Part shown: in pieces, positions 2,600 to 46,667 of the stretch | Numbering within the stretch: position 1 is the stretch's first letter | Layout: each line of letters starts with the position of its first letter | Assembly: GCF_000340215.1 (NCBI RefSeq) | Contig: NW_006921536.1 | Location: 3,653,918 to 3,717,917 of the forward strand | Length of the DNA stretch: 64,000 bases | Source: Pseudocercospora fijiensis CIRAD86 | Lineage: Eukaryota; Ascomycota; Dothideomycetes; Mycosphaerellales; Mycosphaerellaceae | Direction: 5' to 3' | The notes under the pieces: generated by a model | Told to the model about the DNA's origin: nothing | The model's database searches: none | What the model saw: the letters and a program-made list of their open reading frames with translations, nothing else | Program-made: the position numbers and the translations under genes

Positions 2600-4800
2600 A
2601 CACTACTATTTGCTATATCTTTTAAAAGTGATTAATGCGATAACGACCGTAGCTTCTAATTAGCTTACTATAAGGCGGGAGCTTCGCTCGCACTTCTAGG
2701 TACGCGTAGCCGCCTAGGAGTACATTTTTATAAGAGCGTTAGATAGGCCGTCTATTATATAGGTAGGCACTACTATTTAAGTAGACTTATATAGATTACT
2801 TAGCTTATCCGCTTATTAGTACTAACTTATAGTAGCTAATAGGCGTAGCGGTAATAAAGGACTCGAAGCAATTAATACTAGTAGTAAGCACGTCGTTTTT
2901 AAGCTCTTATTACTACGCTATTATATCTGTTAAATATCCTATAGCTTCTATAGCAGTAGTAGCTATAGAAGTAGACTCTTTAGAAGTAGGCTTATAGCGT
3001 ACTTAATATTCATTCTATAGGGCTCTTAATCTTACTAGACCGCTAATAAGCTACTAGTCCTTCTTCTTACTACTAGACTAACGCTTACGAAGCTAAACCT
3101 TACGGCGAGTTAGATATAATAGTATTATAGTAATATAGATACCGCTATTATCGATAAGACGATAGTACTTATTAAATAGGTACTAAGAAACGTAAATAGC
3201 CTTTATTATAGCCCCTCGCTTAGTATACTACTTCTTAGTACGCTCGAAATAGGTAAGCAACTATTCTATAGTCTCTTAGAAGTAGTTGAAGGTAACGTTA
3301 TAGCTTTATAAACGTTAAGTCGCTTTCTTAAATAGCATAAGGGATAGGCGTATCTCTTTAAGAATAAGCTAGTCTGCCTCGGTAAGCCGGTATTTACTAA
3401 TCTATAGTATACTAATAAATAAGGCGTTAAGAATAGGCCTTATTTAAAGGGCCTCCTTAATTATTAGTAACTAGCTATTCTAGCGAGTCTTACCTAGCGG
3501 CTTCGGATAGGTAGAGGGCAGCTTCGTCTATGCCTTAGCTTATTATTTAATAGCGTTATAGAAGTTGTTCTCTTACTATAGGGCCTTATTTAGCTAGTAG
3601 AGACGCTATAGTAGTAATTGCTTAGTAAGGCACTCCGTATTAAGATCTAACTACCTAGATATAGAGACCTTGTCGTTATCGCCCTCGGCTTAGTTATTAA
3701 ATAGCACTTGTCTTACTTAGAGCGCTCTTTAATCGGCTAATTCTACTACTTCTATAGACTTAGCAAACATAAAGGCTTATATAATAAGGTTAATAATATA
3801 GCCGAAGTAGCGTAGACGACAGCTCTACTTAGTTTAGTATATATAGCCCTTCTTATATATATAGAGCTTAATCGACCCGTAGAGGGCACTACTATTAGCG
3901 GCATTGCTAGCAGTTATCTAGCTAAGCTTATAAGCTATTAAGACGGTCTTAAAGCACGAGATTAATAGCTAAGCAATAAAGGCACTAGTATAAGAGCCTC
4001 GTTATAGCGGCGGTAGGTTAGAAAGGACCTAAGTAAGCTTGCCGTACTTATTAATATACTAATAGCTAATTGCTTAGAAGTGCTTATAGCCGTATTGCGC
4101 CTTCTATATATTAGTACTAATATAGAGGCAACTAATAGCCTTAAGAAGCGCTATTTTGACCCTTTCTCGCTAGTCCTTAAAGTTATACTATACTAGTACT
4201 ATTATTAAAACACTCGTACTACTACTAAAGTATATAAGTTTAAAAGAGCCTTATCTATATATAGATTAACTACTAATATTATCTCTTTAAAGGCCTTAGA
4301 AACAAGGAAAGAATAGGAGACACTATATACTATAGTATAGCGAGCTATTAACTACCTAAATTTGTCTATATTAGCTTCCGCTATGCTCCTTAGAATAGTA
4401 GCTATACGCCTTACCTCGCTACCCTCGCTTGCTACCTATATTTTATCGATATTAGTATGCTCTTATAGCGGATCTTTTTCTAGATAGACAATAATACTAT
4501 ATATCTTAAGAAAGTAGTCTACTACGTTACTAGATACTAATTTCTATGCCTTAGGATTGTCTACTAGATTGTGCTTATAGCAGATATATTTATAACTATC
4601 TATTACGAGTAGGCTCGCTATCCTACGGATCTCGAGTATAAGACTATAATACTAGATCTATCTTATTCTTAATAAAGTATAGCTTCTTCTACTAACCGAG
4701 TATTAGTAATATAGGCCTTAGTACTAGTATTAGAGTTAGAAGGAAGGCTAAATAAGGTATCGATTACTAGGTATCTTAAAGCTCGTTTAGAGTCGGATTT
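2600..4800 (-). pseudogene. hAT-family transposase, RIP-degraded
   Basis: Read on the minus strand from about 4800. The N-terminal part has a BED-like context with an aromatic/Cys/His run (YKYICYKHN, codons around 4590) and a conserved hAT stretch near 4330-4300 (RYTIVYSVSYSFLVSKAF). The central part has the family hallmark of a DNA-binding Asn-Ser region followed by LRYFGYIINLII (family form RCxGHxxNLxxQ) near 3820-3780. A basic region and a hATC-like end lie at about 2760-2600, where an apparent frame change occurs. hAT enzymes cut and paste elements flanked by 8-bp duplications using an RNase H-fold DDE site. Length fits a 650-750 residue transposase. I could not identify its terminal inverted repeats. 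Confidence 0.72.
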
Positions 4801-6119: not shown

Positions 6120-6508
6120 GAGTCTACCTTCTTTCCTTACTCTAACGTTACTATAATATAGGCTTGCGCGACGCTTACTCTATAACCTAGCGATATCGCG
6201 ATACTACCTCTCTCGCTATATATAACCTTCGTATCGATACCTATACCGCTACGCTCTATATCTACTACCTCCGCTATACCCTCGCTCTACGCGCGCCTTC
6301 GTATACCTTCGTAACGTACTCTTTTATTAATTCGACGACTTTTATAATACCGAGTCTACTTAACTAAGTTACGACGTCTTATAAGAAGGGACCTAGTACT
6401 TCTACCGGTCGTAATAAGACCGGGCCTACTAGAAAGAGTATAGTATATCTACGTAAGAAGGCTACTACTACTGCCGCTAGCTCTAGTACTAGAAAGCGCG
6501 TCTAGAAT
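6120..6508 (+). pseudogene. Fragment of histone H3-like gene (5' flank and N-terminal tail)
   Basis: This stretch matches, in reverse orientation, 38.55-38.94 kb inside the 9.9-kb hAT element, including the upstream flank and the first part of the lysine/arginine-rich tail (a segment reading KKGPSTSTGRNK here and KKGPTTSTGRNK there). Homology stops at about 6508, where the sequence switches to Gypsy integrase C-terminus. The histone fold itself is missing. No GCCGGC arrays are seen on this side, so it is either a remnant of another hAT copy or of an independent H3-like gene; I cannot tell which. The tail alone would not be diagnostic without the copy at 38 kb. Confidence 0.65.
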
Positions 6509-7281
6509 ATAGTTACTCCTATAAGCTAGCCTTTAAATAGAAAGGGCCTTATAGAGTATAAGAGGTCCTTTACGACGGTTCTACGTACTGTCTTTAGGAA
6601 CTTAATAGTACTACCTTAAAGTACTCGTACTCTTAGGCTAACCTAAAGAAGATCGTCGAATTAAGAGAACCTACCCGCCCTCCCCTAACTAAAGAGGAAG
6701 TTAGTGCCTCTATAGACCCTCTACCGGCCTTAGATACCTATCGAGAGGAGGGTCCTACCGCGATTATAGATCCTATTCTACCTAATAACTATACGTATCC
6801 CTAGATACGTCTTAGTAAGCTATTAGGAATAACTTATAAATAAAGGGAGGGTTATATACATATTAATTGCGTATAAAGCATTTCCGATATTAATTCCGAT
6901 AGTAAACTAGACTTCTAGCTATCTAACTCTAACTCCGAGGAGGAACTCGACTAGTCTAGCGACAAAGACCGCCTAGAATTATAGATATTAGACGACCCTA
7001 AGACTAAATAATTGCTAGTTCTTCCTTACCTCTATCTATCTCTACTACGTTACTTCCTTACTCTTATTAATCGTTCTCCGCGCTGTTAATATAGTGCCGC
7101 CCTATACCTTTAGTCCTTACCTACTATCTATTCCTACTAATGTTTATACTCTTATTTATTGTTTGTTGTTTTTAGCTTATCTTATTATTGCCTTTTACTT
7201 TTGCCTTTACCTTCGATAGATATTGCTATAACTTTATTCCTTTACTCTTATTTCCTTAGATAGAACTATACGAGGCATGTT

Positions 7282-7314
7282 TTCCTAATAATACCCCGAG
7301 GGTAGTATTAGGAA
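7282..7314. repeat. Punctuating palindrome, copy 1 (element B, after pol)
   Basis: Arms TTCCTAATAATACCCC and GGGTAGTATTAGGAA. Lies in the spacer between the pol stop (7009) and the ORF X region. Confidence 0.9.
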
Positions 7315-7358
7315 GATAGCCGAACCTAACCTCTCTACCCTTCTAGGATTACTTCTCT

Positions 7359-7362
7359 CTAG
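7359..7362. repeat. Target-site duplication of element A (left), CTAG
   Basis: CTAG immediately precedes the LTR at 7363 and recurs right after the other LTR at 19659-19662. Removing A rejoins B into a sequence matching the corresponding uninterrupted stretch inside A (11395-11410). Confidence 0.85.
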
Positions 7363-7642
7363 TAAAGGACGGAAACCAACACTACTACCACTACTAGCAG
7401 TAATGGTATAGGCCACCGAGGGTAACATAACCTATAGCAATATAGGCAGCTATGTTTAGTATAATAGGATAACAAGACGGTTGCTTAGGCTAATAACTAG
7501 AGCCCTATAATATAGGCATTATAGAAGTGTAACGTAAACAATGTACTATACGAGGTTAGTGCTCTATCTACTATATAGAAGGAGGCCTCTTATATAGGCT
7601 CAAAACTTAGCCTAGGTGTGTAGGGCCGGTTACTAGCTAATA
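7363..7642 (-). repeat. 3' LTR of element A
   Basis: In sense orientation it starts TATTAGCTAGTAACC and ends GTCCTTTA, consistent with TG...CA ends after RIP. Matches 19379-19658 over 280 bp with about 17 differences by eye, every one a C/T or G/A change at CpA/TpG versus TpA. Confidence 0.93.
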
Positions 7643-7841: not shown

Positions 7842-10592
7842 CTACTGCTTTAATGCACCGTAATCCTTACTAGCAATAACCTTATTAGCTAGTCGACTAT
7901 CCTAAACTCCTCCGCAGGTATTGAAGCTATTAGCACTAAAGTACTCTGCCTTAAAGTAAGCTTAATTAACGAGGAGGTTAGTAGCCTTGTCCTATATAGC
8001 CTTCTCCTATTCGCGTAGATAGTCCTTAAGCTCCTCCTTATTAAACTAGAGGACTTATTTAACTTCGTTCTAAATAACGTAACTTAACTAAGGAATTCTA
8101 CCGACTAGGGCATCGGAAATACAACCGAGGCCTTCGACTAAGATAGCGGCAAGGAAGGCGAACGGCACGAAGGTATTAGAACCTAGAAGGGCGGTTAGAT
8201 TGCGGTACGCCTTAGCAACCTTAGCGACGGTTAAGTTGTCGTAGCCCTTAATCTTAGTGCCGTCGATAATACGAGAGTAGCCTAGGTCGATTAATATACG
8301 GTCGCTCTCGGGCTTTAGGTTACTATACAGAAGGTATAGTATCTAAATAGAGACTTCGCATTCCTTTAGAGGGTTAAGGATCTACTAAGCTGCCTCGCCT
8401 TCGTTAGGCTATCTATCGAATATATAACCGAGGTCGTCGTTAGTAAGGTGCTTGTTAGTAAGCTTGCTAATCTTGTTTAGTAGAACTAGGCTACGGGTAT
8501 TAAGCTTCTTAACCTAGTTCTCGAAGACCTCTAGTTCGTATATGCCCTCGATAATAGTTAAATAGGCGGTCTTATCTTTAGACATAAGAGAAACCTTAAT
8601 GCGCAGATAGCTAGCACCCTTACTAGCTGCGAGCTTAACTATATCTTGTCCGAGACGAGAAGTCTCCTTAGTAGGGCAGTTCTTATAACCGCTATTACCT
8701 ACCTTAAAGTACTTAGTAGGCTTAGGGACGGAGATAAGCTCGTATACGTAATTAGGTCGAAGGGCAACGGCTAAGAGCTACAAGGCGGGATATTAACGGA
8801 CGATTTAGTTGCTTACTCTATAGGTTTAAAGGGCATTGCGGCCTTTCTACTTAGACTTAGGCAGTTTACGTATATGCTAAAAGAATATACGAAACTCCTC
8901 CTATATTAGGTCGATAATAAGAGGAAGGTGCGCTCTACGAGGCGACTATATCTAACCGAAGACGCGAGGGAAGATAGCATTACTAGTCTAACGAAAGCGG
9001 TCGAAGGAGGTACCTTGTCCGAGAATGCTAGTAATTAACTTATAGCGACGCTTAGTTAGCGTAAGATCGCGAGTAATAGTACTAGTAGGGTTGAATGCGT
9101 AGAGTCCTAGGGAGGTCGGGGCGGCAGTAGGACGTCTAGGAAACCAGTTAGCATAACTAGTCTTAAGGGTAGTAAAGGCATCCTAATTAGCAACCTCGCG
9201 ACCAATCTTTAATAGGCGACCGACGAGGACACTCGCCTTAGCACTAGCATAGAGACTACAGACCTTAGCAGCCTTCTTAATATAGTTAGCATATATAGTA
9301 AACCGCTCCTTACCTAGCTTACTAAGGTCGTCGAGCTATTAATAGATAGATAGGGCGGTAGGAGCTTTACCTATATCGGCTTTAGGAACTATATCGATGT
9401 TAGTAATAAGGTACGCAATAGAGTCGCCCTTACAAGAACTATAGATGTTCTTAGTTAATAGGATCGGCGAGAGGCCTCTATCTCTACGCTTACTAAAGGA
9501 GCCTTCGGAGGAGACATCTTCTAGTAATATATCTAGTATATTAATATCCGAGTTACTATAGTTAGTACTATAGTTAGTACTATAGTCGGTACTAGAAGGA
9601 GTACTATACTTCTTAGTAGCCTTACGGAGGGCCTAGCGAGTATGTAATACCTTCTTACGCGCTGCTTCGGCCTTAGCGCGCTCGTCTTAAACTTCTTAAG
9701 GGACCTTACGGTTACGGGTCGAGCGACGATCTTTAGCCTACATTTCTATAGCGAGCGTAAGACTAGTAGCCGTATCGGCCTCGGTTTCTAGGCGAAGAGC
9801 CTTACGTTTAAGGATATTAACGATAGGAGCCTCTTAATCCTTAACAATAAAGCCTATACTATTAATACGATAGCCCTTCTCTTTTAGTAGATCCTTAGTT
9901 ATCTATACGTTAAGATCGACCTAGACAATCGCATCGTAGTGCTTCTTCTAGTAGGCTGTCGTAAAATCGTTAAGCGCAAAGGACAAGTTAAGTAACTACT
10001 TGCCTACCTTCTTACTAGCGGTAGATATACGATAGATTATAGTACGGGAAAGATGCTCGGCGCCTTAACGACGGACCTTATACTTATTAACGAACGAAGA
10101 GACCTACTTAGTACGCTCTTATCTACCGTAGGCGAAGTTAATAAGGCTCTTAGGAAGACTACTTAGTCCTCCCTAATATTCGAAGGCCTAGTCGAGGGTC
10201 TTAAAGCGCAAACGAATCTAGGTGCCGGCTATCTCGAGGCTATAGACGATAGGAAAGGCTTGTTCGATATCTATATCGTTAAGAACCTCGCGCTTAAAGA
10301 TACGCTTACCGATAGACTAGCGCAAGTTATTTATACCGTACGCAACTAAGATAGTAGCCTTCTTAATGTTCCTATTAATAACGCGTAGCAGGGTACGAGC
10401 GTTCTAGATCTTCTCTTAAGAGTCTTTAAGGGCGGTAACGATCTAGAAGTAGTGCTCGAGGCTAGTTGTAGCAGCTAAGGCGCTGTCGGATAGGGCTTCG
10501 ATCGGAACTAGGGCGGCTAGGCTTAGGTTAATAGGGGCAGGTAGGTCGTTGCTACTACTAGCGCCTAGCGGATTCGGGGCGCCGGAAGACAT
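7842..10592 (-). pseudogene. ORF X of element A: about 916-codon protein of unknown function, downstream of integrase
   Basis: Starts at an intact ATG (10592), beginning MSSGAPNPLGASSS; an in-frame upstream ATG at 10652 is possible. It stops at 7842. Only RIP-type stops interrupt it, and the copy in element B (20494-23225) has nearly the same length and sequence, so it was a real gene. Visible features are a Ser/Pro/Ala-rich N-terminus, a charged helical stretch around residues 280-340, and a short repeated Asp/Asn-Tyr-Ser-Thr tract (DNA 9555-9600). No zinc finger, protease, transmembrane pattern or envelope hallmark is seen. It is not gag or pol. A segment near the C-terminal third resembles the third ORF of the Gypsy at 50.5-56 kb (RPNY...LIS and IYxLEVF in the same order). 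Extra ORFs after pol are known in some fungal Gypsy elements; function unknown. Confidence 0.82.
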
Positions 10593-35153: not shown

Positions 35154-36747
35154 TTATAAGCCCTTAGCCTTCTTCTTATTCCTTATACTAGTCTAATACT
35201 CGTCTAACAACTTAGCTATATCCTTAAAGGAGTCTTTAGCCTCCTACGAGTCCTATTTAGGTAAATAGCCTTGCTATCTTAATAGGTATTCCTTTTTGCC
35301 TTACCTAGTCCGATGCTTTAGGATGCGTTCTACCGACTATAGCTCTTTACTATTAGCTAAGACTTCTTCTAATTTAGTAGGCGCTTTATCGCCTTCGCGC
35401 TAGTAATATAGTTTAAGGAGGGATACGTAGAAGGTATTATAGATAGTATAATAAGGAGTAAGCTATAACTAGTAGGCCTATATACCCTTAGCCTCTCGAA
35501 TACGGAATAGGCTAATGTATCTTAGTACGAGCTTAGGCCTTGTTTTGCTATTAAGTAATAGGTGTTTGCGGATGCGGAGGTTCTTCGTACTAAGTATAAC
35601 TATATCGCCTTATTTAAAGGTTATCGGTATATAGCGCTTATCGTAGTAGGTCTTTTTATACTCTTAAGCCTTTGTTAGCTTCTTAGCTATCTTAGTATAG
35701 ATTTCTCGTATCTTCTAGATACGTTCTATTACCGCTAGTGTCTCTAGTACTTAACGCGCTTTCCTTTCCTTACGCTCGGCCTCGAGCGAGGTAAATAGAT
35801 CTTATAGTAAGGCAGCGTTTTAGCCTATTATAGCTATATATAGCGAAACCTTAGTTAATAAGTATACACTGTTATTATATACGAATTCTATAGGTTATAG
35901 GAGGTTAACCTAATCCTCGGGGTTCTTATTAATATAACTGCGTAGGTACTACTATAGGGTAGCATTCTACCTCTCTATTTAACCGTCGGTCTATAGATAG
36001 AAGGCTATTAATAGCCGATGCTTTAGTCTTAGCTATAGGTATATTTCGCTCTAATAGTGCGATATTAGTATCGATCTACGATTAGATACTATCCCCTTAG
36101 GGGTTCCCTAATAGGTATAGAAGATATTGTTCTATAGCGCTTCTACTATATTAATAGCAGTCTAATCTTTCCGCGCCGGGATATATCGAGCGCCTTTAGT
36201 AAATCGATCTACTATAACAAGGATAGTATTATATATATCCTTGCTACCCCTACGCTTAGTAGGAGGAAGGCCTATAATAAAATCTATTATAAGTTCTACG
36301 AATAGCTTCCTAGGAATAGGAAGTAAAGACAACTCGCTAAATAGTAGGTGCTTTAGTGCTTTAATACGCTAGTATACTGCATAGGTCTATACGTATTCTT
36401 TTATATACCGCTTACTATTTAGCTAGTAGTATATACGCGATAGCAGCTCGTACGACCTCTCTATACTATAGTAACTAGCGAGCTTACTATTATAGTGCCT
36501 TTTTAAAAGCTCTTATCTAATCGATTGTGTAGCGGGGATATAGTATCTGCCCTTAAACTTTAAGTAACTCTTATCGTCGATCGACTAACTTTTACTCTTA
36601 CTAGATCGAGTCGCTCGCCTACTTACAAGCCTATTAATACGTTTAATAGCAAAGGCGTCCCTCTGCTAAGTACGTAACAGCTTATCTATAAACGATTAAC
36701 TATCCCTATTTGCAAGGTTATTTAATAGCACCCTTGCTATTAAACGA
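35154..36747 (-). pseudogene. pol: Chromodomain Gypsy pol, 3' part: integrase core and chromodomain
   Basis: Integrase DDE segment reads VIVDRFTKGARYIPA near 36200, then SNR(G)S...LKHR and FY..TDG, the standard Gypsy integrase motifs (second Asp changed to Asn by RIP). The C-terminus at about 35370-35200 is a chromodomain: VERILKHR, then KKEYLLR*QGY (from KKEYLVRWKGY), which in chromoviruses directs insertion to methylated-H3 heterochromatin. Stop TAA at 35156-35154. The gene is interrupted at 36747/36748 by the 9.9-kb hAT and continues at 46660. Confidence 0.9.
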
Positions 36748-36755
36748 GGTACGTA
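36748..36755. repeat. 8-bp target-site duplication of giant hAT (left)
   Basis: GGTACGTA, identical to 46660-46667. Confidence 0.95.
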
Positions 36756-36775
36756 TAGACCCCGCAGTGGTTCGG
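36756..36775 (+). repeat. Left terminal inverted repeat of giant hAT
   Basis: TAGACCCCGCAGTGGTTCGG; pairs exactly with 46640-46659. Confidence 0.95.
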
Positions 36776-36935
36776 GTTGGTTTGGTTTGGTTTGCTAAGC
36801 CGAAACTCTAGTTTGGTTTGGGTTAGTTTGCTAAGCAACTATATAAGTAGCTAGTTCGAACCATATAATTTATCGGTTTTTAAGAAGTATACGAATGTAT
36901 ACGTAGCTTTAAGCAAGCCCTTTGTAAGACTTAGC

Positions 36936-36962
36936 AGTGTAGCCGGCAGCGTAGCCGGCATT
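36936..36962. repeat. GCCGGC array 1
   Basis: Two units of the form GTAGCCGGCAGC, followed by a T-rich run and a CCTTAGTACT motif that recurs after array 2. Confidence 0.8.
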
Positions 36963-37185
36963 TTTAGTCCTTAGTACTTATAGAATTTTCGAATCCTACT
37001 TAGGCTACGTAGTTGTATAAAGGTACTTATATAACCTCAAATCTATAGAAAATTAGCTAAGGGCACTAACTAATTAAAAGCATACACACATATACAAGGC
37101 ATTATAGTTTAGTTCGGAAACTGCACTCCTTAGGTATAAATTTCATCCTTTCGTTTACGGTTCAATTCCCTAACTGCTTAGTAGA

Positions 37186-37570
37186 ATGTCTTTATCTAGA
37201 TCTAGGCAGAACTTATCGATTTCCCTAGAAGTCCTCCTCCTTAAGAAGTTTATACACTTTCCTACCGAACTATTCGATAATATTAAGTACTAGGATAGCT
37301 CCTCCCTCGGTATCGGTATAGTATATAAAAGAGCTATAAGGCAGCTCTGCAGAACGTTCTACTAGTTACTCGCTATACTAAGGCCGAATACTAGTTCGTT
37401 CCTTAGAACTCTTAGTTATTTAGGAGATATAAAGGGTAGGGCAGGTAGTAACTTCGTATTATATAAGGAGGTAGAGGCTGCTATAGAAGAGGCCTTCAAC
37501 CTATAGAAGATAGTAAAAGATATAGAGGCAGCTGTAGGTCTAGGTACCTAGTTGAATTTCTAGTAGGTAG
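37186..37570 (+). pseudogene. Unknown ORF in giant hAT, possible F-box-like start
   Basis: An intact ATG at 37186 opens a frame of about 125 codons with only RIP-type stops. It begins MSLSRSRQNLSIS and has HFPTELFDNI near residue 25-35, which resembles the LPxELxxxI start of an F-box, then basic, leucine-rich sequence (RAIRQLC, LLAILRPNTSSFL). The short length and single motif make the F-box call weak. It is the only clear plus-strand gene in this hAT; the others are minus. Confidence 0.45.
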
Positions 37571-37788
37571 AGTATAAGGATATTTAGAGGGAGTATTAGG
37601 TAGAGTTGCGAAGGCAGGTGTATAATATACTCTAGAAAACAGGGATAGTGCCTATAACTATAACTATTAGGCTCTTCAACCTTCCTTATTTTTCCCTGTT
37701 TTCTTTTTATAAAAATCTAAACTAATACAAATCAACCGGAATGTCTATCTTCTTTTAGTTCTTTAAAAAACCTAGCAGCGTAGCTAGT

Positions 37789-37823
37789 AGCGTAGCCGGC
37801 AGCGTAGCCGGCAGCGTAGCCGG
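37789..37823. repeat. GCCGGC array 2
   Basis: Three units of GCGTAGCCGGCA then a T-run and TACTAAC-like branch motif with a later TTTTAG, compatible with an intron on the plus strand; strand not certain. Confidence 0.75.
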
Positions 37824-38049
37824 CCTTTTTACTCCTTAGTACTAACGGGATTTTAGGAGACTTCTATTCCGTACGGCCAATAAAGCATACTGTACTATAT
37901 ATATATGCTTAGAGAGTATTTAGAGCGCGGTATATAGCGCCGTATAACAGCGGCTCATTTCGTGTATAGAAAAGCTTATAGACGATACTACGAACATCCT
38001 TCCTACTAGTATATCTATCCTACCTAGCACTATCTCGAATGTAGATATT

Positions 38050-38703
38050 CTAGCCTTTTAGGATCTAATCGAGTGCTTTAAAATCCTTGTCTATAATCGT
38101 TATACGCTTCGCGTAGATAGCTATAAGGTTGACCGCTAAAATAGTATTAGTATAGTCCGAAAAGAGGTAGAAGAGAAACATATATTCGAAGATACGAACT
38201 AAGTAGGCTTCTATAGCCTCTTAAAGGGCGCCTATCGCGGAGGCTTAGAAGCGAAGGTCCGTTCTATAATCCTAGGTAATTTCGCGAATAAGTCGTTAGA
38301 AAGGAGCTTTACGGATTAGGAGCTTAGAACTCTTCTAATACTGCCGAATCTTACGGAGGGCTACGGCTAAAGAAGGATTAGTAAAAAGACAGTAAGAATG
38401 CCGGCTACGCTACCGGCTACGCTACCGGCTACGCTACCGGCTACAAATAGGACTTACTTCCTAGGCGCTATCGACGCTTCGTACGATTGCTACTAGTAGT
38501 AGAAGCGCTAGTTGTCGTCTTACGTAGAGCCTTACCCGCCGTTGTCTTGCGCGGAGCCTTACTCGCGACGCCCTTTCTAGTACCGGAGCTAGCGGCAGTA
38601 GTAGCAGCTATCTTGCGTTAATGTACTATACTCGTTCCTTTATTTCCGATCTTGTTACGACCCGTAGAAGTAGTAGGTCCCTTCTTACGAGGCGTCGTAA
38701 CTT
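38050..38703 (-). pseudogene. Histone H3-like gene 1 (H3L1), two exons or more
   Basis: Exon 1 (about 38703-38458) is a long basic tail with H3-tail-like motifs (SKAPRKTTAGKALRKT) ending KRR*RLG. An intron at 38457-38367 (GTAAGT start, TTACTAAT branch, CCTTCTTTAG end) holds GCCGGC array 3. Joining the exons restores codon for codon LG-TVALRKIRQY, the H3 sequence PGTVALREIRRY. Exon 2 then reads KSSKLLIRKAPF*RLIREI, DLRF*ASAIGAL*EA, EAYLV and, after a probable second intron near 38170, IYAKRITI, matching the alphaN, alpha1, alpha2 and alpha3 of H3. The stops are CAG-derived. The tail is longer and diverged from canonical H3; the alpha1/alpha2 region is nearer canonical H3 than CENP-A. The exact start is unclear because no ATG remains. 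Relatives: fragment at 6120-6508 and H3L2. Confidence 0.87.
38367..38457 (-). other. Intron of H3L1 containing GCCGGC array 3
   Basis: 91 bp with GTAAGT donor and CTTTAG acceptor; contains four units of GTAGCCGGTAGC type (38403-38444). Its removal rejoins the conserved H3 motif GTVALR in phase. Confidence 0.88.
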
Positions 38704-38989
38704 AGTTAAGTAGATTCGCTATTATAAAAGTCGTCGAATTGAGGAAAAAAGTGCGTTACGAAGGTATGCAAAGGCGCGCGCGGAGCGAGGGTATTGCGGA
38801 GGTAGTAGATATAGAGCGTAGAGGTATAGGTATCGATGCAAAGGTTAAATATAGCGAGAGAGGTAGTATCGCGGTATCGCTAGGTAACAGAGTAAGCTTC
38901 GCGTAAGCCTATATTATAGTAACGTTAGAGCAAGGAAAGAAGGCAGGCACGGCTAAAAAAGGCAGGTACGGCAGACTTTGAAATATAGC

Positions 38990-39230
38990 CGGCATATATA
39001 GCCGGCATAGTAATAGGCGAAAGCCTCCTTTTAATAAATAGCCGGCGTGATAATAGTATCCTACTATAGTATTTCTTTAGTAATGCCTTTACTAGCTATA
39101 GTAATCTTATAAGTAACCTAGGCCTATTGCTAGTAAATATAAGAAATATTAGGTAGGCTATACTAAACAAGCTAGTTATTTAGTAGAAAAAGGCCTACTA
39201 CCGTCTCTATATGCCGGCTACGGGTGCCGA
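38990..39230. repeat. GCCGGC arrays 4 and 5 and spacer
   Basis: Paired units ATAGCCGGCATA at 38993-39012, a single unit near 39048 and another pair at 39212-39230. Lies upstream of H3L1 and downstream of the gene at 39.2-40.3 kb; no coding seen. Confidence 0.7.
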
Positions 39231-39245
39231 CTATCGCTCTAAATT

Positions 39246-39967
39246 CAACTCCGCCCTATCTCGGAGGCTAAGGTACCGAGCGGAAACCCTATAGCTTATA
39301 TTTACTCGGTTGTCGCGGAGCGCTTATAGGTAAGGTATTAGAAAAGAGTATAAAAAGTACGAGAAGAGTATCCTAGGATATAGGTCGTAAGTGAATAAGA
39401 GTAGTACGCCTAGTTATTTATATAGTACGTTACTCTATACGACTAAGAGCCTATATTATCTTATACTTCGCTTATAAGACCTCGACTCTACTAGTGTACT
39501 ATCGATCTCCTCCTCGGTCGCTAATACGCTGTCTTAATTCTTCTTCGAGTTGCCGGACTTAGTGCGCATCTATAGCTATGTAATAGCGCTACGTATTATA
39601 GAGAATCAACTCCGCCGTATCTCGAAGGCTAAGGTACCGAGCGGAAACCCGATAGCTTATATTCACTCGGTTATCGCGGAGCGCTTATAGGTAAGGTATT
39701 AGAAAAGAGTATAAAAAGTACGAGAAGAGCATCCTAGGATATAGGTCGTAAGTGAATAAGAGTAGCACGCCTAGTTATTTATATAGTACGTTACTCTATA
39801 CGACTAAGAGCCTATATTATCTTATGCTTCGCTTGTAAGACCTCGACTCTACTAGTATACTATCGATCTCCTCCTCGGTCGCTAATACGCTATCTTAATT
39901 CTTCTTCGAGTTGCCGGACTTAGTGCGCATTTATAGCTATACAATAGCGCTACGTATTATAGAGAAT
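39246..39967. repeat. Tandem duplication, 2 x 361 bp
   Basis: 39246-39606 and 39607-39967 are near-identical direct copies differing mostly by C/T and G/A changes. Confidence 0.93.
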
Positions 39968-40260
39968 TTCTCGTTAAAGTTTCTCTCTCGTAGGCTTACT
40001 ATCTACCTCGTAGTGTAGAGGATTAAAGTGCTAATACTAAAGAATCTCCTTATAGTTAGGATGCTAGGGCTCCTTAGGACCTTTGTATTTTAGGTCTAAA
40101 TAGAGACGTATTATAAACGTTCTATCGCCCTTTCGCTTACTACCCGCTAGGTCGCGATATGCGAAGAAACTAATCTAAATGTAGCTCGTCTCTATAATAG
40201 CCGGGTAAATATAGAGCGCTAGGTTTCTACTTCGTACCTTAGATTTAGGGACGGCGCGGA
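39246..40260 (-). pseudogene. Unknown gene in giant hAT with internal 361-bp duplication
   Basis: Minus-strand frame from about 40260 (basic start, then LALYIYPAIIETSY, FFAYRDLAGSKRKGD, FIIRLYLDLKYKG) stays open apart from RIP-type stops for over 150 codons and runs into two tandem 361-bp copies (39607-39967 then 39246-39606). The duplicated unit includes a repeated segment of Glu-rich and hydrophobic sequence. I recognise no family. It lies between the two H3-like genes on the same strand. Confidence 0.5.
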
Positions 40261-40274
40261 GATAAAATCAGAAA

Positions 40275-40299
40275 TGTAGCCGGCACCTATAGCCGGCAA
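40275..40299. repeat. GCCGGC array 6
   Basis: Two units (GTAGCCGGCACC, TAGCCGGC) in the gap between H3L2 and the preceding gene. Confidence 0.8.
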
Positions 40300-40357
40300 A
40301 ACGATGCGAAAATAGGCCTCCTCCTAGGTTAATCTAACGACTAAATACAATTTCTAA

Positions 40358-40965
40358 CTAATCCGCTGTAAACCGACGCCGAATTTTAGCTAGAAGCTAT
40401 ATATCTTTATTTTAAAGAGTAACCCGCTTCGTATAGATAGTAAGGAGGTTTAAAAGCTTAAGCTCGGTTATAAGAAATGCCTCCGTAGCTTCCTAAAGAG
40501 CACTAATCGCCTTAGCCGTAAATCGCATACTAGACCGAAAATCTAATGTAATTTCTCGGACGAGTCGCTAGAAGGGAGTCTTAGGGATTAAAAGCTCGGT
40601 CCCTCTTTTATTTTAGAAAAGCCGGATCTAGCGAAGGGTAATAGTACCTAGTTTAAAGCGCCGCTTCTTTATCGTCGAGTCCTGCCTTGTTCCCTTTCTT
40701 TTAATAGAAAGATAACTTTTCTTCGCGATAGTCTTTGTCCGCCTACTCTTTTTAGCCTTCTCCTATCTACCTATAGCCTTCTTGTTTTTCGGTACTATTT
40801 TCCGAGGAACCCCCTTCCTTCGTATATACTACGGAGAGCCTTGCTCTTCCGATATCTCGTTCTCGCTACGGTCTCCCTATACTTAGCTTGCTTTACCCTT
40901 ACCCTTTAGCCTCTAAAGATATTTATCTACGCGTTTAGGCGACGAGGGTATATCGGTAGGACCTA
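40358..40965 (-). pseudogene. Histone H3-like gene 2 (H3L2)
   Basis: Minus-strand frame ending in TAG at 40358. Roughly 110 residues of Lys/Arg-rich tail (KKSRRTKTIAKK, RQDSTIKKRRF) lead straight into LGTITLR*IRLF, then TELLIPKTPF*RLVREI (H3: TELLIRKLPFQRLVREI), FRSSMRFTAKAISAL*EATEAFL (broken by a CAG-derived stop), and TIYTKRVTL*NKDI*LLAKIRR (H3: [21 protein letters not shown]). All helices of the H3 fold are recognisable in order. It lacks the intron found in H3L1 at GTVALR. It is more diverged in alpha2 and alpha3 than H3L1, and the tail is longer than canonical. Start uncertain (about 40965). Neighbour downstream of the transposase on the same strand. Confidence 0.88.
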
Positions 40966-41097
40966 GAAATTAATAAGTATATAATCGTAAGGAGACATTA
41001 ATGCTTCTTACCTTCTAGAACAAATAGTCTTCTATTAAACCGCCTTATTAGGTTATCGTTAGATTCGAATAAAGGATAGTAGCTTAAGGAAGGGGAG

Positions 41098-41310
41098 GTA
41101 GCCGGCTTAGGAAGGCCCGAAGAGCCGAATCCTTAAGGTATATTTGTCTTTAAGAATATAGGGAAAGGGAAGAAGGAGAGGAAGAGCGAATAGAGAATTA
41201 GAAATAGTCCGTAGGTAAGCGGGGTCGGTTGCTATAGCAACTAGTCTGTTTGGGTCCTAGGAATTCGAAACACATTTCGGACATATACCGGCTATATACG
41301 CCGGCTATAT
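41098..41310. repeat. GCCGGC array 7
   Basis: Single unit near 41100 and a pair at 41287-41309 (TACCGGCTATATACGCCGGC), between the transposase stop (41355) and H3L2. Confidence 0.7.
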
Positions 41311-41354
41311 TACCTTATACGTAAACGCTTCGTCTCCTTAAAGCTACTCTAAGC

Positions 41355-43690
41355 CTATATACGTTTCCGCTTCTCGACCCGGTATTGCCTTCTACCTCCG
41401 CCCTCCTCCTCTTCGTTATCGCTAATTAGGGTTTCGCTTAGACTAAATTTCGCATTCTCTTCGCGCTCCTAGGTTTCTTCGATCTTAAGGTTTTCTAATT
41501 CCTCGATTAACTCCTTTAGTATAATCTTTAGTAACCTACCTTAGCGATTCTAGTAAAGGAGATAGTATCGGAATACTATAATAGATTCGAAGGTAGTAGG
41601 CGAGTATATTCGATTAAAGCGGCCCTAGTAACGAGCGATACTAAAAGACCTCTTATAGCCTATACCTGCGCTCGGGATAGCGAGGACGTCCCGAGCGACC
41701 GACGCTATCGTTAGAAACTTAGGCTCTAACCGCTGCTATATAGCGAGAATATCGTCTCCGAATTCGTCTAGAAGACCGGTAAGATCTAGAGATTATTAGC
41801 CCTCTTTCCGAGCCTATAGGTTTATACTTACTCGCGCGCCGATAGAGATCGAACTCTTCTTTATTTACTTTAGTAGTTGCTTCCTCTTCTGCCTCTACTT
41901 CCTACCTACGAAACAGGTATAATATCGGAGCCTTCTAAACCTTCTTTTTCTTTATAAGAGCTGTATTTAGACTAGTTTCTTTCCGACGCTCGTAGAACAT
42001 CTTTTCTAGAATAGTCTAGTAATGCTTCGGCTATACCTCGTCCGCCTTCTATTCCGGCCTCTACTAGTATATATCCTTTTCTACCGGGTTAAGCAAGTAC
42101 GCAACGCTATAGATATCCCCGAACGAGTTAAAGGTAGTACTATAATATTTATGCAACTTAGTATAGGAGGTGTCTATAGCTTTCGTTATAGCTACTTTCT
42201 AGGGAACGCTCTTCTTAGCTAGCTTAGCTACGGTTTCCTCGAGCTCGTTAAAGAGCTAGTTATAGTACGTAAAGACAAGGTAGATCGTCGGTCCTCGGGT
42301 TCTTCTAATCGTAGTAGTAACCTTCGCGTAATACTTACTAATATCGACGAGATACTCTACTTAGCGCTATTCGGCGGCGGTAAGGCCGAGCTACTTAATA
42401 CCCTCGGAACTCTAATAGATCTCGAGAGCGGTACGTAAAGTATATCCCCTCGTAACTATATAGAAAGTCGAATCGAACCGGGTCTTAACGTCTTAGGTAA
42501 AACGGAGTAGGCGCTAAGGAGGCCGCTTTTGCTATCGCTTATTCTATGCGATATTCTAGGCATCGGTTTTAGGGCGCTCGATTAGGTTCTTTTAAATAGC
42601 CTCGAATCGGTTATATCTCTATAAGCTCGAGTTCGTATATATTGCTAGACGACGAAGCTAGAGAAAAAGAGTTAGAACTATACTAGGTTACCGGCTATAG
42701 GTGCCGGCTACGGATAAAAGTTATACCTTATACAAAACGAGAGCGAGGCTCTCTACCTTATCCCGTCTTATTACTATAATAAGTTTCTCGACTTTCGACT
42801 TTGCTTTATCCTTATCTAGGATCTTCTATTAGTCGTCGTTTAATAGTGCAATTTTAAGCGTCTTAAAGAGGGCTCGGATCGCGATTTAAACTATATAAGC
42901 GAGGTAGGGAAACTTCTATAGGGATGTAACTAGCAACGACGTCGGCTCCGATTCAATAGGGCTAGGGCTATTAATAGGCTCCTCTTCATCGTTATTATCG
43001 TACGTATTATCGTACGTATCCGGAATCGTAGCGAGTTTAATATTCGGAAGATTAAGCTAGATTATAGACCTTGTAATCTCCTCTACGTACTCGACCCTAT
43101 CGATACAATTAGTGATTTTAAAGATATATACGAGTGAATTGTATATATAACGCCTTATACAATGTTCGATTATTACTAGCGTTGTCCGTAGTAATCGAGA
43201 TTAGTTTCGTTGTTACGCTAACCCTATCTATTGCCGTATAGACAAGCTTCGCTATATCCTTACTAGTATAGGAACCTAGAATTTTAGGGAATCCGATTAT
43301 AAGTTCCTAGAGTTTCTAATCCGAATTGATAAAGTATAGCATAATCGAGAGGAAGGAGGCTCTTATAGTCCGGCTTAACTAGCTATCGATAGCAATAGCT
43401 ACTCGGCGAGTATTACGGAGGATCTCCCGAATATCGTCTAACGCAGCCTCTTTGTTCTTTTCGAATATAATACGCTAGGTTATCGCGCCGAGAAATAGGG
43501 GAGGGTAGTTTATAAGATATAGGTATATCTTCTATATAGACTCCCTTTCGTAGAAGTCTTCCGGAAGACCGTTTATAGCTAGCATTTTGTTTGCTAGTTA
43601 CTTAAAGTCTTCGGGGGAGAAATCGGTAGCCTTCAATCCTAGAGCTTCCTTAAGCGTAGCCTATAATAATTAGCTAGATCTCTACGGTTA
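41355..43690 (-). pseudogene. hAT transposase of the giant element
   Basis: Central part near 43400-43170 shows hAT hallmarks: AIDS*LSRTIRASFLSIML (from AxDxWTS...), the II/LIGFPKILGS turn, and ISITTDNASNN with the conserved DNASNN. Splicing out 42733-42658 joins ...SLALVL to LRRLAIYTNSSL*RYNRF, the RKxxxYxNSSPQR motif of the family. Then DVKTRFDSTF (from DVKTRWNST), ELEETV, YLLNPVEKD and finally a hATC dimerisation domain (ASVARDVLAIPSAGI...RSFSIAR at about 41680-41620) and an acidic, then basic C-terminus, stop at 41357-41355. An N-terminal extension or separate exon may reach 44420. It would mobilise the whole element. Confidence 0.92.
42658..42733 (-). other. Intron of giant-hAT transposase containing GCCGGC array 8
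   Basis: 76 bp, GTATAAGG donor, TTCTAAC branch site, TTTTTCTCTAG acceptor; GCCGGC units at 42683-42709. The phase-0 junction restores a conserved hAT motif. Confidence 0.88.
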
Positions 43691-43696
43691 ATTCAG

Positions 43697-43747
43697 GTAG
43701 CCGGAATCTATAGCCGGTAGCTATAGCCGGTAGCTGTAGCCGGCATT
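43697..43747. repeat. GCCGGC array 9
   Basis: Four units (GTAGCCGG spaced by AATCTA, TAGCTA, TAGCTG), just 5' of the transposase core; likely in a leader or another intron. Confidence 0.8.
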
Positions 43748-43839
43748 TTAGAAGATATACCTCTTTCTAGAACGCTGTATCTATATCAACTCTCCTCTCT
43801 CTTTAAGATTCCCGATACCGTTTAGAATAGAGATAGTTC

Positions 43840-44420
43840 GTAGGCGATAAGTTCCTATCCTATAGTTTCGGGTATTTTAAGATTGAACCGTAGAAGTTAT
43901 AGACAATTACTAGTTAACCTTTAAGTCGAGAAGTCGTATAACGGTATAATGCCCCCTCTATAAAGAACTTCTAGAATGTATCCGTTCGCTCCTTACTCCC
44001 CTATCGCATCGAGTACTTCCGGAGTTTATACTCCTTTAAACGTAAGTATAAAGGGAACTATATCTTATAGACCTATTGATTGAACTGCTCTATATACTCG
44101 GGTTTCTAAAGATACGCCTAGCTAGCCTTTTCGAAGATTTCCGGGTTAATACTCGATATTCTTATATCTCCGAACAACCTTCTACTTAGACTCCGTAAAG
44201 GTAAGGACTAGGTAGTAGTACCCTATAATAAATTCCTACTACTAGGATTCGGAGAGGATAAATCTAGCCCTAATCGTAGTCTAGGACTCGATAGGCTCGA
44301 AGGTAAGTATACGACCTCCTCTCGACGTTGTCGTAATCTCGCTCGTATACTAGACTGTTTCGACTGTCGTCTCGTTGTTACCCTTCCTAGTATAGCGCCT
44401 AGTATATATACAATATCGGT
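43840..44420 (-). pseudogene. Possible N-terminal exon of giant-hAT transposase
   Basis: Minus-strand frame with RIP-type stops, reading through a segment of Thr/Val-rich then FEPIES, RARFILSES and YKNIEY, and later YPEIFEKAS and SKERTDTF. It fits an N-terminal region of the transposase separated by array 9, but I see no clear BED zinc finger, so it could be a separate gene. Confidence 0.4.
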
Positions 44421-44557
44421 CGGTATGTTTTAAGGTTTCGTACGGTAAGGTAAGGACTTAGGAGTAGTAGATATATACTAGTAGCTATAGAGAAATACCC
44501 TTTCTTTTATAGCATCGTATCGTTAGGAACAGCTAGGTAGTAAATAGCTAGCTACCT

Positions 44558-44660
44558 TTTTTTTTATTTCCTAGCTACCTAACTACTAGATTTTTTTTCC
44601 TAGCTACCCTAGCTAGCCTAACTACTAGAATTTCTTTCCTAGCTACCCTAACTACCTAAA
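44558..44660. repeat. Imperfect T-rich/CTAGCTACC tandem repeats
   Basis: Three units of about 35 bases: T-run, TTCCTAGCTACC, then CTAACTACTAGA. Lies between the transposase region and the next gene. Confidence 0.75.
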
Positions 44661-45089
44661 TTTTGCCTTCTATACGGCGGCTCTCTCCTACTAACGGAAC
44701 CGAGCTACTATACCTAACGAATCTAAGCTCGTTTTTAGTCTCAATCTATCCTCTTTCGGTATAAGATACTCGATAAGCAAATGCTTAGGCCGAGTCTAAC
44801 TACGAAACCTAAGACTAACTAATAGCTCTATTAACCAATCCTAATCCTCGAACTCCTTCCGCTTCTTAGTAAAGACCTTAAAGAGCGCTCGAGCTTCTTC
44901 GGGTGCCTACGGAGTAGTCGAGATAAAGCCGTATCGCTAAAATAGGTAATCCTTCGGAGGCTTATATAGAGATTTAGAGAATTCCAACGCTAACCTATCC
45001 TACTAGTAGCTTAGATTCCGGATATAAGCCCTCTTTACCTTAGTAAAGATTTTATATAGTAGTAGTACTCTACCTTCGAGAAACGCTTT

Positions 45090-45137
45090 CTATTTAACTG
45101 TTAGTATCTGCCGGCTACGAACGCCGGCTATATATAC
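45090..45137 (-). other. Predicted intron with GCCGGC array 10
   Basis: 48 bp: GTATAT donor, TACTAAC branch motif, AAATAG acceptor; two GCCGGC units inside. Confidence 0.7.
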
Positions 45138-45643
45138 CGAGCATAGAATAATTACCTATACCCCTTCCTCCTATAGTAATACTTCTACCGTCCCTAGATA
45201 CCTAGCCCCGATCGTATTAATCGCAAGCCACTTTGCCTTTATAGACGCAAAGGCTTCGCTCTAATACTAATAAAGAAACTTCTACTCTATATCGAGGATA
45301 TAAAGACAACTAGTCTCGATTCTAATCCTTACTAGCTTTTCGTAGTAGCTTTAACTATGATTTTCTAGATTAATAGGACTTATGCCTTAGCCCTTTACTA
45401 GTATCTCGTCTCTTTAACTATGCTCGATCTACTCCTAGCGCTTATCGTCTATAGCGTTAGGCCCTAAGACTGCACCTGTTACTAGATCGACGTATAGTAT
45501 CTCCTCGCTTTTTTTAGTTCCTTTATTCGTAGTATTAAGCTCTATCGCGGTATCCTAAACTCTAGTATTATTGTTCTCGGCTATCTAAACATCTCCGTTA
45601 CTATCGGTCGTATCGATAGAGGTAGCGGCTATAGGTCTAAATG

Positions 45644-45743
45644 CTATTAGTTAACGTATTAAAGAAAAATATACCAGCTATAGCTGCCGGCTACGGCTGC
45701 CGGCTATAGCTACTAGCTACGGCCGCTAGCTAGATTGACTTAC
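45644..45743 (-). other. Predicted intron with GCCGGC array 11
   Basis: 100 bp: GTAAGT donor, GTTAACTAATAG branch/acceptor; GCCGGC units and degenerate TAGCTA copies inside. Confidence 0.75.
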
Positions 45744-46199
45744 GCTACTAGAACTTTACGCTCGAAAACTAGCCGTAATTCTTTCCTCCTCTTAGCCTTC
45801 TCTTAGGTTGTCTTCTTATTCTAACCTTTACTTTTTTCTATAGGCGCTAGCTATCGATAGAATGCCTTATTCCGCGCCTTTCTTCTCTTATCCTTAGCTC
45901 TTTTATCCTTATCTATCTTGTCCTTTCTCTCGCGGTCTCGTACGGAATTCTTCTTCGTAGAGTACTCCTCTTTAGTCTTACGCTTTTTAGTTAGACGCTT
46001 AGGCAAAACAAACTCGCGGTCTTTAGTTCTATCTTCTATTTAGCGCGCGGCGCGCTTCTCTCTTGCTATTATAAGGGAAAGGGGCGGGGGCGTAGCGTAT
46101 AGCAGTTATTGTCGGTATAGGTATAGAGGAAGAAGTTGAAAGTATAAGAATATCGCGAAGCCCTAATTGTTACCGCCTACGTAACGTTATATAGGTAAG

Positions 46200-46530
46200 C
46201 TTTCGCAACTACGGCAACTACGCCCCGGCAATAGTAACTACGCCCTAGCAACGGCAACTACGCCCTAGTAACGGCAACCACGCCCTAGCAACGGTAATAA
46301 AGCGTAGTAAATACAACCTAGTAACTATTATAGCCGGCAATCGTAGCCGGCAGTCGAATAAGAGTATCCTTATAGCAAAACTACGCCCTAGCAACGGCAA
46401 CTACGCCCTAGCAACGGCAACTACGCCCTAGCAACGGCAAAAGAGCGTAGCAAATGTAACAGAGTTACTATTATAGCCGGCAATCGTAGCCGGCAGTCGA
46501 ATAAGAGTGTCCTTATAGTAAAACTAATAC
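46200..46530. repeat. 20-bp minisatellite and array 12 near right end of giant hAT
   Basis: Units GCAACTACGCCCTAGCAACG repeat at about 46208-46290 and again at 46378-46436. Each block is followed by GCCGGC pairs (46324-46350; 46475-46495), so the whole block is duplicated with a period of about 147 bp. Confidence 0.88.
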
Positions 46531-46627
46531 AGTCTCTAGTTCAAACTAGGAATCTATATAGTTCGAAAAAACTAAACTGGAACTAGGGAGCTAGTTCGCC
46601 GCTAAGAAACCAAACCATATACGTTTA

Positions 46628-46648
46628 GTGGTTCGGAAACCGAACCAC
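46628..46648. repeat. Terminal hairpin of giant hAT
   Basis: GTGGTTCGG AAA CCGAACCAC overlaps the right inverted repeat. Confidence 0.85.
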
Positions 46649-46659
46649 TGCGGGGTCTA
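46640..46659 (-). repeat. Right terminal inverted repeat of giant hAT
   Basis: Exact complement of 36756-36775. Confidence 0.95.
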
Positions 46660-46667
46660 GGTACGTA
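46660..46667. repeat. 8-bp target-site duplication of giant hAT (right)
   Basis: GGTACGTA, identical to 36748-36755. Confidence 0.95.

Follow-up and report, generated by a model that had tools for sequence, protein, structure and literature searches.

A RIP-mutated hAT-type element of Pseudocercospora fijiensis with two distinct histone H3-like genes that may once have worked

Introduction

How might a DNA transposon come to carry histone genes, and were such genes ever of use to it? This question is raised by a stretch of 64,000 nucleotides from the fungus Pseudocercospora fijiensis CIRAD86 (contig NW_006921536.1, positions 3,653,918 to 3,717,917; C5:3653918-3717917 in our survey of the 73.9-Mb genome in 30 contigs), hereafter the window, in which a hAT-type element mutated by repeat-induced point mutation (RIP) contains two minus-strand genes resembling histone H3, here named H3-A and H3-B. 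An original prediction, made from the sequence alone, held that no hAT family with H3 cargo had been described. This was mistaken, as such elements are described in two papers, Dhillon et al. 2019 (PMC6710886) and Manning et al. 2013 (PMC3538342), the only ones on hAT elements with H3 genes among the hits listed in literature searches that covered main texts and few subscription papers. We propose, with a probability of about 0.5, that the element is a RIP-killed copy of a published H3-bearing hAT family and that both H3-like genes were likely working before RIP, their products replacing H3 in some nucleosomes.

Results

By sequence family, H3-A and H3-B both belong to histone H3, in agreement with the original prediction. 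Scored with stop codons read as Q or W, H3-A matched the Pfam family Histone at E 5e-22 (78.9 bits) as an unspliced frame and at E 1.3e-31 (109.8 bits) when two predicted introns were omitted, and its best PDB match was histone H3 (E 9.7e-41), the alignment starting at residue 10 of the matched chain. H3-B matched Histone at E 1.4e-23, and its best PDB sequence match was likewise histone H3 (E 8.4e-28). The fold is supported by an AlphaFold model of H3-B (mean predicted local distance difference test score, pLDDT, 65.5; predicted template modelling score 0.43), in which the four H3 helices are present and ten-residue blocks from residue 101 average pLDDT 71-90, the N-terminal half being poorly modelled; in Foldseek, nucleosome chains rank first for this model. 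Compared with canonical histone H3, the two products would have the same fold and most of the same core residues, and H3-A has an H3-like tail stretch, whereas their N-terminal parts are long and altered and the N helix of H3-B is followed by two additional residues.

The two genes are distinct and diverged, with 53% identity to each other over the fold, compared with 69% (H3-A) and 57% (H3-B) to the host H3. The protein database yielded H3s at about 40-64% identity, without a close relative of H3-A among the 40 of 343 candidates scored, or of H3-B among the best 120 of 596 scored (678 candidates). A tree built with 39 H3 rows placed H3-A and H3-B on separate long branches; it left their placement open, and the bootstrap did not settle. 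A CENP-A identity was also considered. H3-A and H3-B share with CENP-A/CenH3 an H3-derived fold and a divergent N-terminal part; we rejected this identity because loop 1 has the length found in H3 in both genes, whereas that of the host CenH3 is longer, and because both are less identical to the host CenH3 (H3-A 56%, H3-B 52%) than to the host H3.

Of the three introns predicted in the two genes, the 48-nt intron of H3-A is the best supported. In aligned copies, this stretch ends in TACTAAT...TTTTAG. When one mismatch was allowed to the donor in the form expected before RIP, GTATGT, 205 sites were found (control, 0). At 52 of them the donor is intact, and all 48 of the mismatched sites listed show the RIP-type change of G to A after T. 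The rise in the Histone score of H3-A from 78.9 to 109.8 bits on omission of both its introns also favours them. On predicted splicing, an intron is thus a better reading of the stretch than the 16-residue insertion reported for one H3-like copy in the available part of PMC6710886, where introns are not proposed. Intron 1 of H3-A reads GTAAGT ... ACTAAT ... TTTAG and is positioned a single codon away from intron 2 of the host H3 gene. In H3-B, the single predicted intron is in the N-terminal part, and the H3-homologous part is intron-free. Extra residues were also seen in a histone H3.1 of a Peltula sp. metagenome-assembled genome (P0150), after the same FE as at the position of the second H3-A intron; these are perhaps an unspliced intron.

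The H3-like genes are integral cargo of the element, as had been predicted. Among 100 listed sites out of the 737 in the genome for the core of the terminal inverted repeat (TIR; see below), 14 pairs lying 9.5-10 kb apart were matched by eye, and 13 of the 14 copies so delimited contain both H3-A and H3-B. In the exceptional pair (C14:456475-466279, ends 9.8 kb apart), the 3.2 kb at the expected place (L070, C14:457800-461000) matches nothing in the element. A DNA search with the 3.1-kb stretch from H3-A to H3-B, which by construction favours complete copies, had 40 of its 519 candidates scored; the stretch was unbroken in 39 (whole in 38, to base 3125 in one) and split in one. Both genes are also retained in a second subfamily (L061-L064), whose main segments are 78-87% identical to those of the window element. 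The original prediction had named in advance two results that would count against it, namely frames that do not score as histones and full copies that lack the genes; neither was observed.

The listed copies bear stops of the RIP type, again as predicted. When 150 of 772 candidates from a Histone search were scored, only the host H3 and CenH3 genes were free of stops, the other 148 having them; when 150 of 768 candidates from a search with H3-A were scored, the sole stop-free one was the host H3 gene. Stops common to five copies occupy 11 of 403 codons in the H3 genes and 27 of 531 in the transposase; because they are at least as frequent in the transposase, they are a mark of general RIP and not specific to H3.

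Were the genes under selection before RIP? The two subfamilies were compared using two and three RIP-mutated copies, respectively, with reading frames set by the analyst; only codons that were ungapped in all five copies were kept, L064 was left out of the H3-B alignment, and p values are nominal, each for a single test. First, all five fixed exon insertions or deletions (indels) are multiples of three (3, 3, 3, 6 and 21 nt), compared with none of the seven outside exons (1, 1, 1, 1, 13, 17 and 151 nt; Fisher p=0.0013, or 0.003 with a more cautious table). This count excludes the intron 1 repeat lengths, gaps at alignment ends, the insert of L062, changes confined to a single copy (1 nt in L065, 2 nt in L061, 1 nt in the window), and tail insertions of 15 and 30 nt in L062 and L064, which are also multiples of three. 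Second, RIP does not make transversions, and 13 of the 39 transversions fixed within the two folds are synonymous, where 19.5% would be expected (one-sided p=0.029). Third, the transposase pieces have 21 synonymous among 62 fixed transversions, against 16.5% expected (p=0.0006). Sliding transversion counts against the three subfamily-2 copies were too noisy for marking frames. Taken from these alignments, the evidence for selection is moderate.

The element itself has the ends of the hAT superfamily. Its exact 20-bp TIRs and perfect 8-bp target site duplication (TSD) were confirmed in the window (Table 1), and perfect 8-bp duplications flank all five further readable end pairs. Genome-wide, the 17-bp TIR core occurs at 737 sites (375+362) with at most two mismatches, ends of short derivatives included, against 6 (5+1) for a reversed control. 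The family is present in the genome as hundreds of copies or fragments. The RIP index, (CA+TG)/(AC+GT), is 0.30 in the element, compared with 1.36 in the surroundings of the host H3 gene. The minus-strand order is the possible open reading frame(s) (ORFs), the transposase remnants, H3-B and H3-A. Of the transposase motifs originally claimed, DNASNN stands, within frame 43118-43306, whereas the hATC region (Dimer_Tnp_hAT) was seen only at E 0.16 and 0.012, both weaker than the Pfam cut-off; RIP damage depresses such scores. When the full element was translated in six frames and scanned against Pfam, Histone was the sole family above a cut-off and no DUF659 was found, nor was there a Pfam match of note for the possible ORF(s). 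Of 7997 protein-database candidates scored against a composite transposase, none was a relative at E<=0.001, and a single unspliced frame of the transposase, compared with the PDB, gave a chance match only.

Table 1. Features of the H3-bearing element, in window coordinates
Feature	Position	Strand	Remarks
hAT-type element, RIP-mutated	36756..46659	.	9904 bp; defined by ends and duplication; RIP index 0.30
Target site duplication, left	36748..36755	.	GGTACGTA
Terminal inverted repeat, left	36756..36775	+	20 bp, TAGACCCCGCAGTGGTTCGG
H3-A	38053..38719	-	predicted exons 38719-38458, 38366-38184, 38135-38053; predicted introns 38457-38367 (91 nt), 38183-38136 (48 nt)
H3-B	40361..41141	-	predicted exons 41141-41012, 40962-40361; about 148 residues precede the histone fold
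hAT transposase remnants	41568..44361	-	clearest pieces 43669-43118, 42636-41839, 41810-41568; N-terminal limit approximate
Possible further ORF(s), function unassigned	44741..46105	-	frames with stops read through
Terminal inverted repeat, right	46640..46659	-	20 bp, exact reverse complement of the left repeat
Target site duplication, right	46660..46667	.	GGTACGTA, perfect 8 bp

Several other sequences were observed in and around the element. Between 36940 and 46495 there are runs of GCCGGCTA/TAGCCGGC in 12-13-bp units, some of them within intron 1 of H3-A; 24 of the 26 such words of the window are inside the element. A 300-nt direct repeat (39245-39544 and 39606-39905, 96% identical) lies between H3-A and H3-B, in a stretch without a match in subfamily 2; the element bases that find no match there are 6441-7588 and 8823-9777, the spacer being different. 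Outside the left end, a minus-strand frame (36162-36368) adjoins the element, and we take it to resemble a Gypsy-type integrase. A 373-bp miniature inverted-repeat transposable element (MITE) shares the 20-bp ends of the element and is flanked by perfect duplications (L068:998-1370 and L069:998-1370, on C7 and C14); its core was found at 34 sites with at most three mismatches. Its RIP index (0.78 and 0.65) is milder than the 0.30 of the large element, and, because it is shorter than the approximately 400 bp given for RIP in the available part of PMC6710886, it may largely escape the process.

Discussion

What, then, were these genes for? In the reading that we prefer, the element would have possessed two functioning, spliced genes, H3-A and H3-B, until RIP disabled them; their products would have substituted for H3 in some nucleosomes, and selection presumably preserved the histone fold but left the N-terminal parts free to vary. 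More speculatively, the variants might have altered the chromatin of the element, making its transcription or movement easier. The frame and transversion tests favour formerly working genes and are silent on function; the chromatin role is what we infer.

Several observations weigh against this reading. The selection tests rest on few copies and on frames chosen by the analyst. The fold of H3-B, taken alone, has only 3 synonymous transversions among 11 (p=0.48), the whole-gene transversion ratios are non-significant (H3-A 0.74, p=0.38; H3-B 1.74, p=0.33), and the N-terminal parts are without significant constraint (H3-A tail 1.81, H3-B extension 3.17). The introns of H3-A changed less between the subfamilies than its exons did, with 1 fixed transversion in 90 positions of intron 1 and 0 in 48 of intron 2. 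Moreover, three H3-B stops are common to all 33 exon 2 rows examined (30 places, three subfamily-2 places occurring twice), so that no listed copy could now make H3-B.

The best-surviving alternative, which we regard as quite possible, is the passive transduplication put forward in PMC6710886: an old hAT would have caught the transcript of an H3 gene accidentally, and this passenger would have served no purpose up to its destruction by RIP. The capture is placed there before the split of Cercospora, Pseudocercospora and Sphaerulina. The passive reading agrees with whole-gene transversion ratios that are not significantly below neutral, with the lack of an intron in the H3-homologous part of H3-B, and with the stops borne by all listed copies apart from the host genes. 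However, it does not readily account for the two intron-like stretches in H3-A, one with its donor intact at 52 sites, or for two distinct genes that are not duplicates of one; nor does it lead one to expect that five of five exon indels preserve the frame and that transversions in the fold lean towards the synonymous.

The opposite extreme goes further than the reading we prefer: the hAT lineage would have kept two H3 variants of its own, spliced and selected for their fold, that built altered nucleosomes aiding transcription, excision or escape from silencing, and it would thus have been a transposon with its own chromatin. This we put forward tentatively, as it is doubtful in its full form. 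Use of the genes chiefly to supply RNA, or a decoy protein, against silencing, with a loosely kept fold and no nucleosome ever formed, is improbable: freely changing N-terminal parts and the two additional residues that follow the N helix of H3-B would suit it, but H3 helices are predicted in H3-B, the matches are to nucleosomal H3, and core residues are preserved. Finally, although nested inserts are known in the family (the 373-bp MITE is found within H3-A in copy L062, within H3-B in copy L064 and, at C4:3394 kb, within the A-to-B stretch), the view that H3-A and H3-B are independent insertions present by chance in the window copy is rejected as extremely improbable, because the gene places are fixed across 13 of 14 paired-end copies and are the same in subfamily 2.

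If the H3-like genes did work, the transposon would have supplied nucleosome parts of its own, and not accidental cargo, and it would become testable in fungi whether mobile DNA acts on host chromatin in this manner.

How does the element compare with known systems? It is very likely a member of the P. fijiensis H3-hAT family, for which the available part of PMC6710886 gives 471 RIP-killed elements with 784 H3-like copies. The two agree in the 20-bp TIR, the 8-bp TSD, a length of 9.5-9.9 kb, one or two H3-like copies and RIP, and, for the host, in an H3 gene of three exons located on the sixth scaffold or contig, the TIR letters not being part of this comparison. They differ in that the paper, as far as its available part goes, describes one captured, intronless transcript, names no second subfamily, and reports DUF659 and no dimer domain, whereas we found a predicted intron, two distinct genes, a second subfamily and only a weak dimer match. 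The two predicted introns of H3-A do not fit the published absence of introns; they would correct the description of the family, not the membership of this element, and the intron would alter what has been published on the acquisition of the H3 sequence. The hAT of Pyrenophora tritici-repentis, in the available part of PMC3538342, likewise has an H3-like gene (H3L) and a further ORF of unassigned function between its ends. It differs in being approximately 5.6 kb long with a single H3-like gene, most copies of which are intact and for which transcripts are reported; the available part of PMC6710886 states that the two elements lack sequence similarity, and we compared them by description only. 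PMC3538342 also asks whether the Pyrenophora gene could alter chromatin, a question for which we met no test on any H3-bearing hAT in the literature searched. Against these systems, the element family of the window was already known, and what our analysis adds is the predicted 48-nt intron, the distinctness of H3-A and H3-B, a further subfamily and evidence, of moderate strength, for selection.

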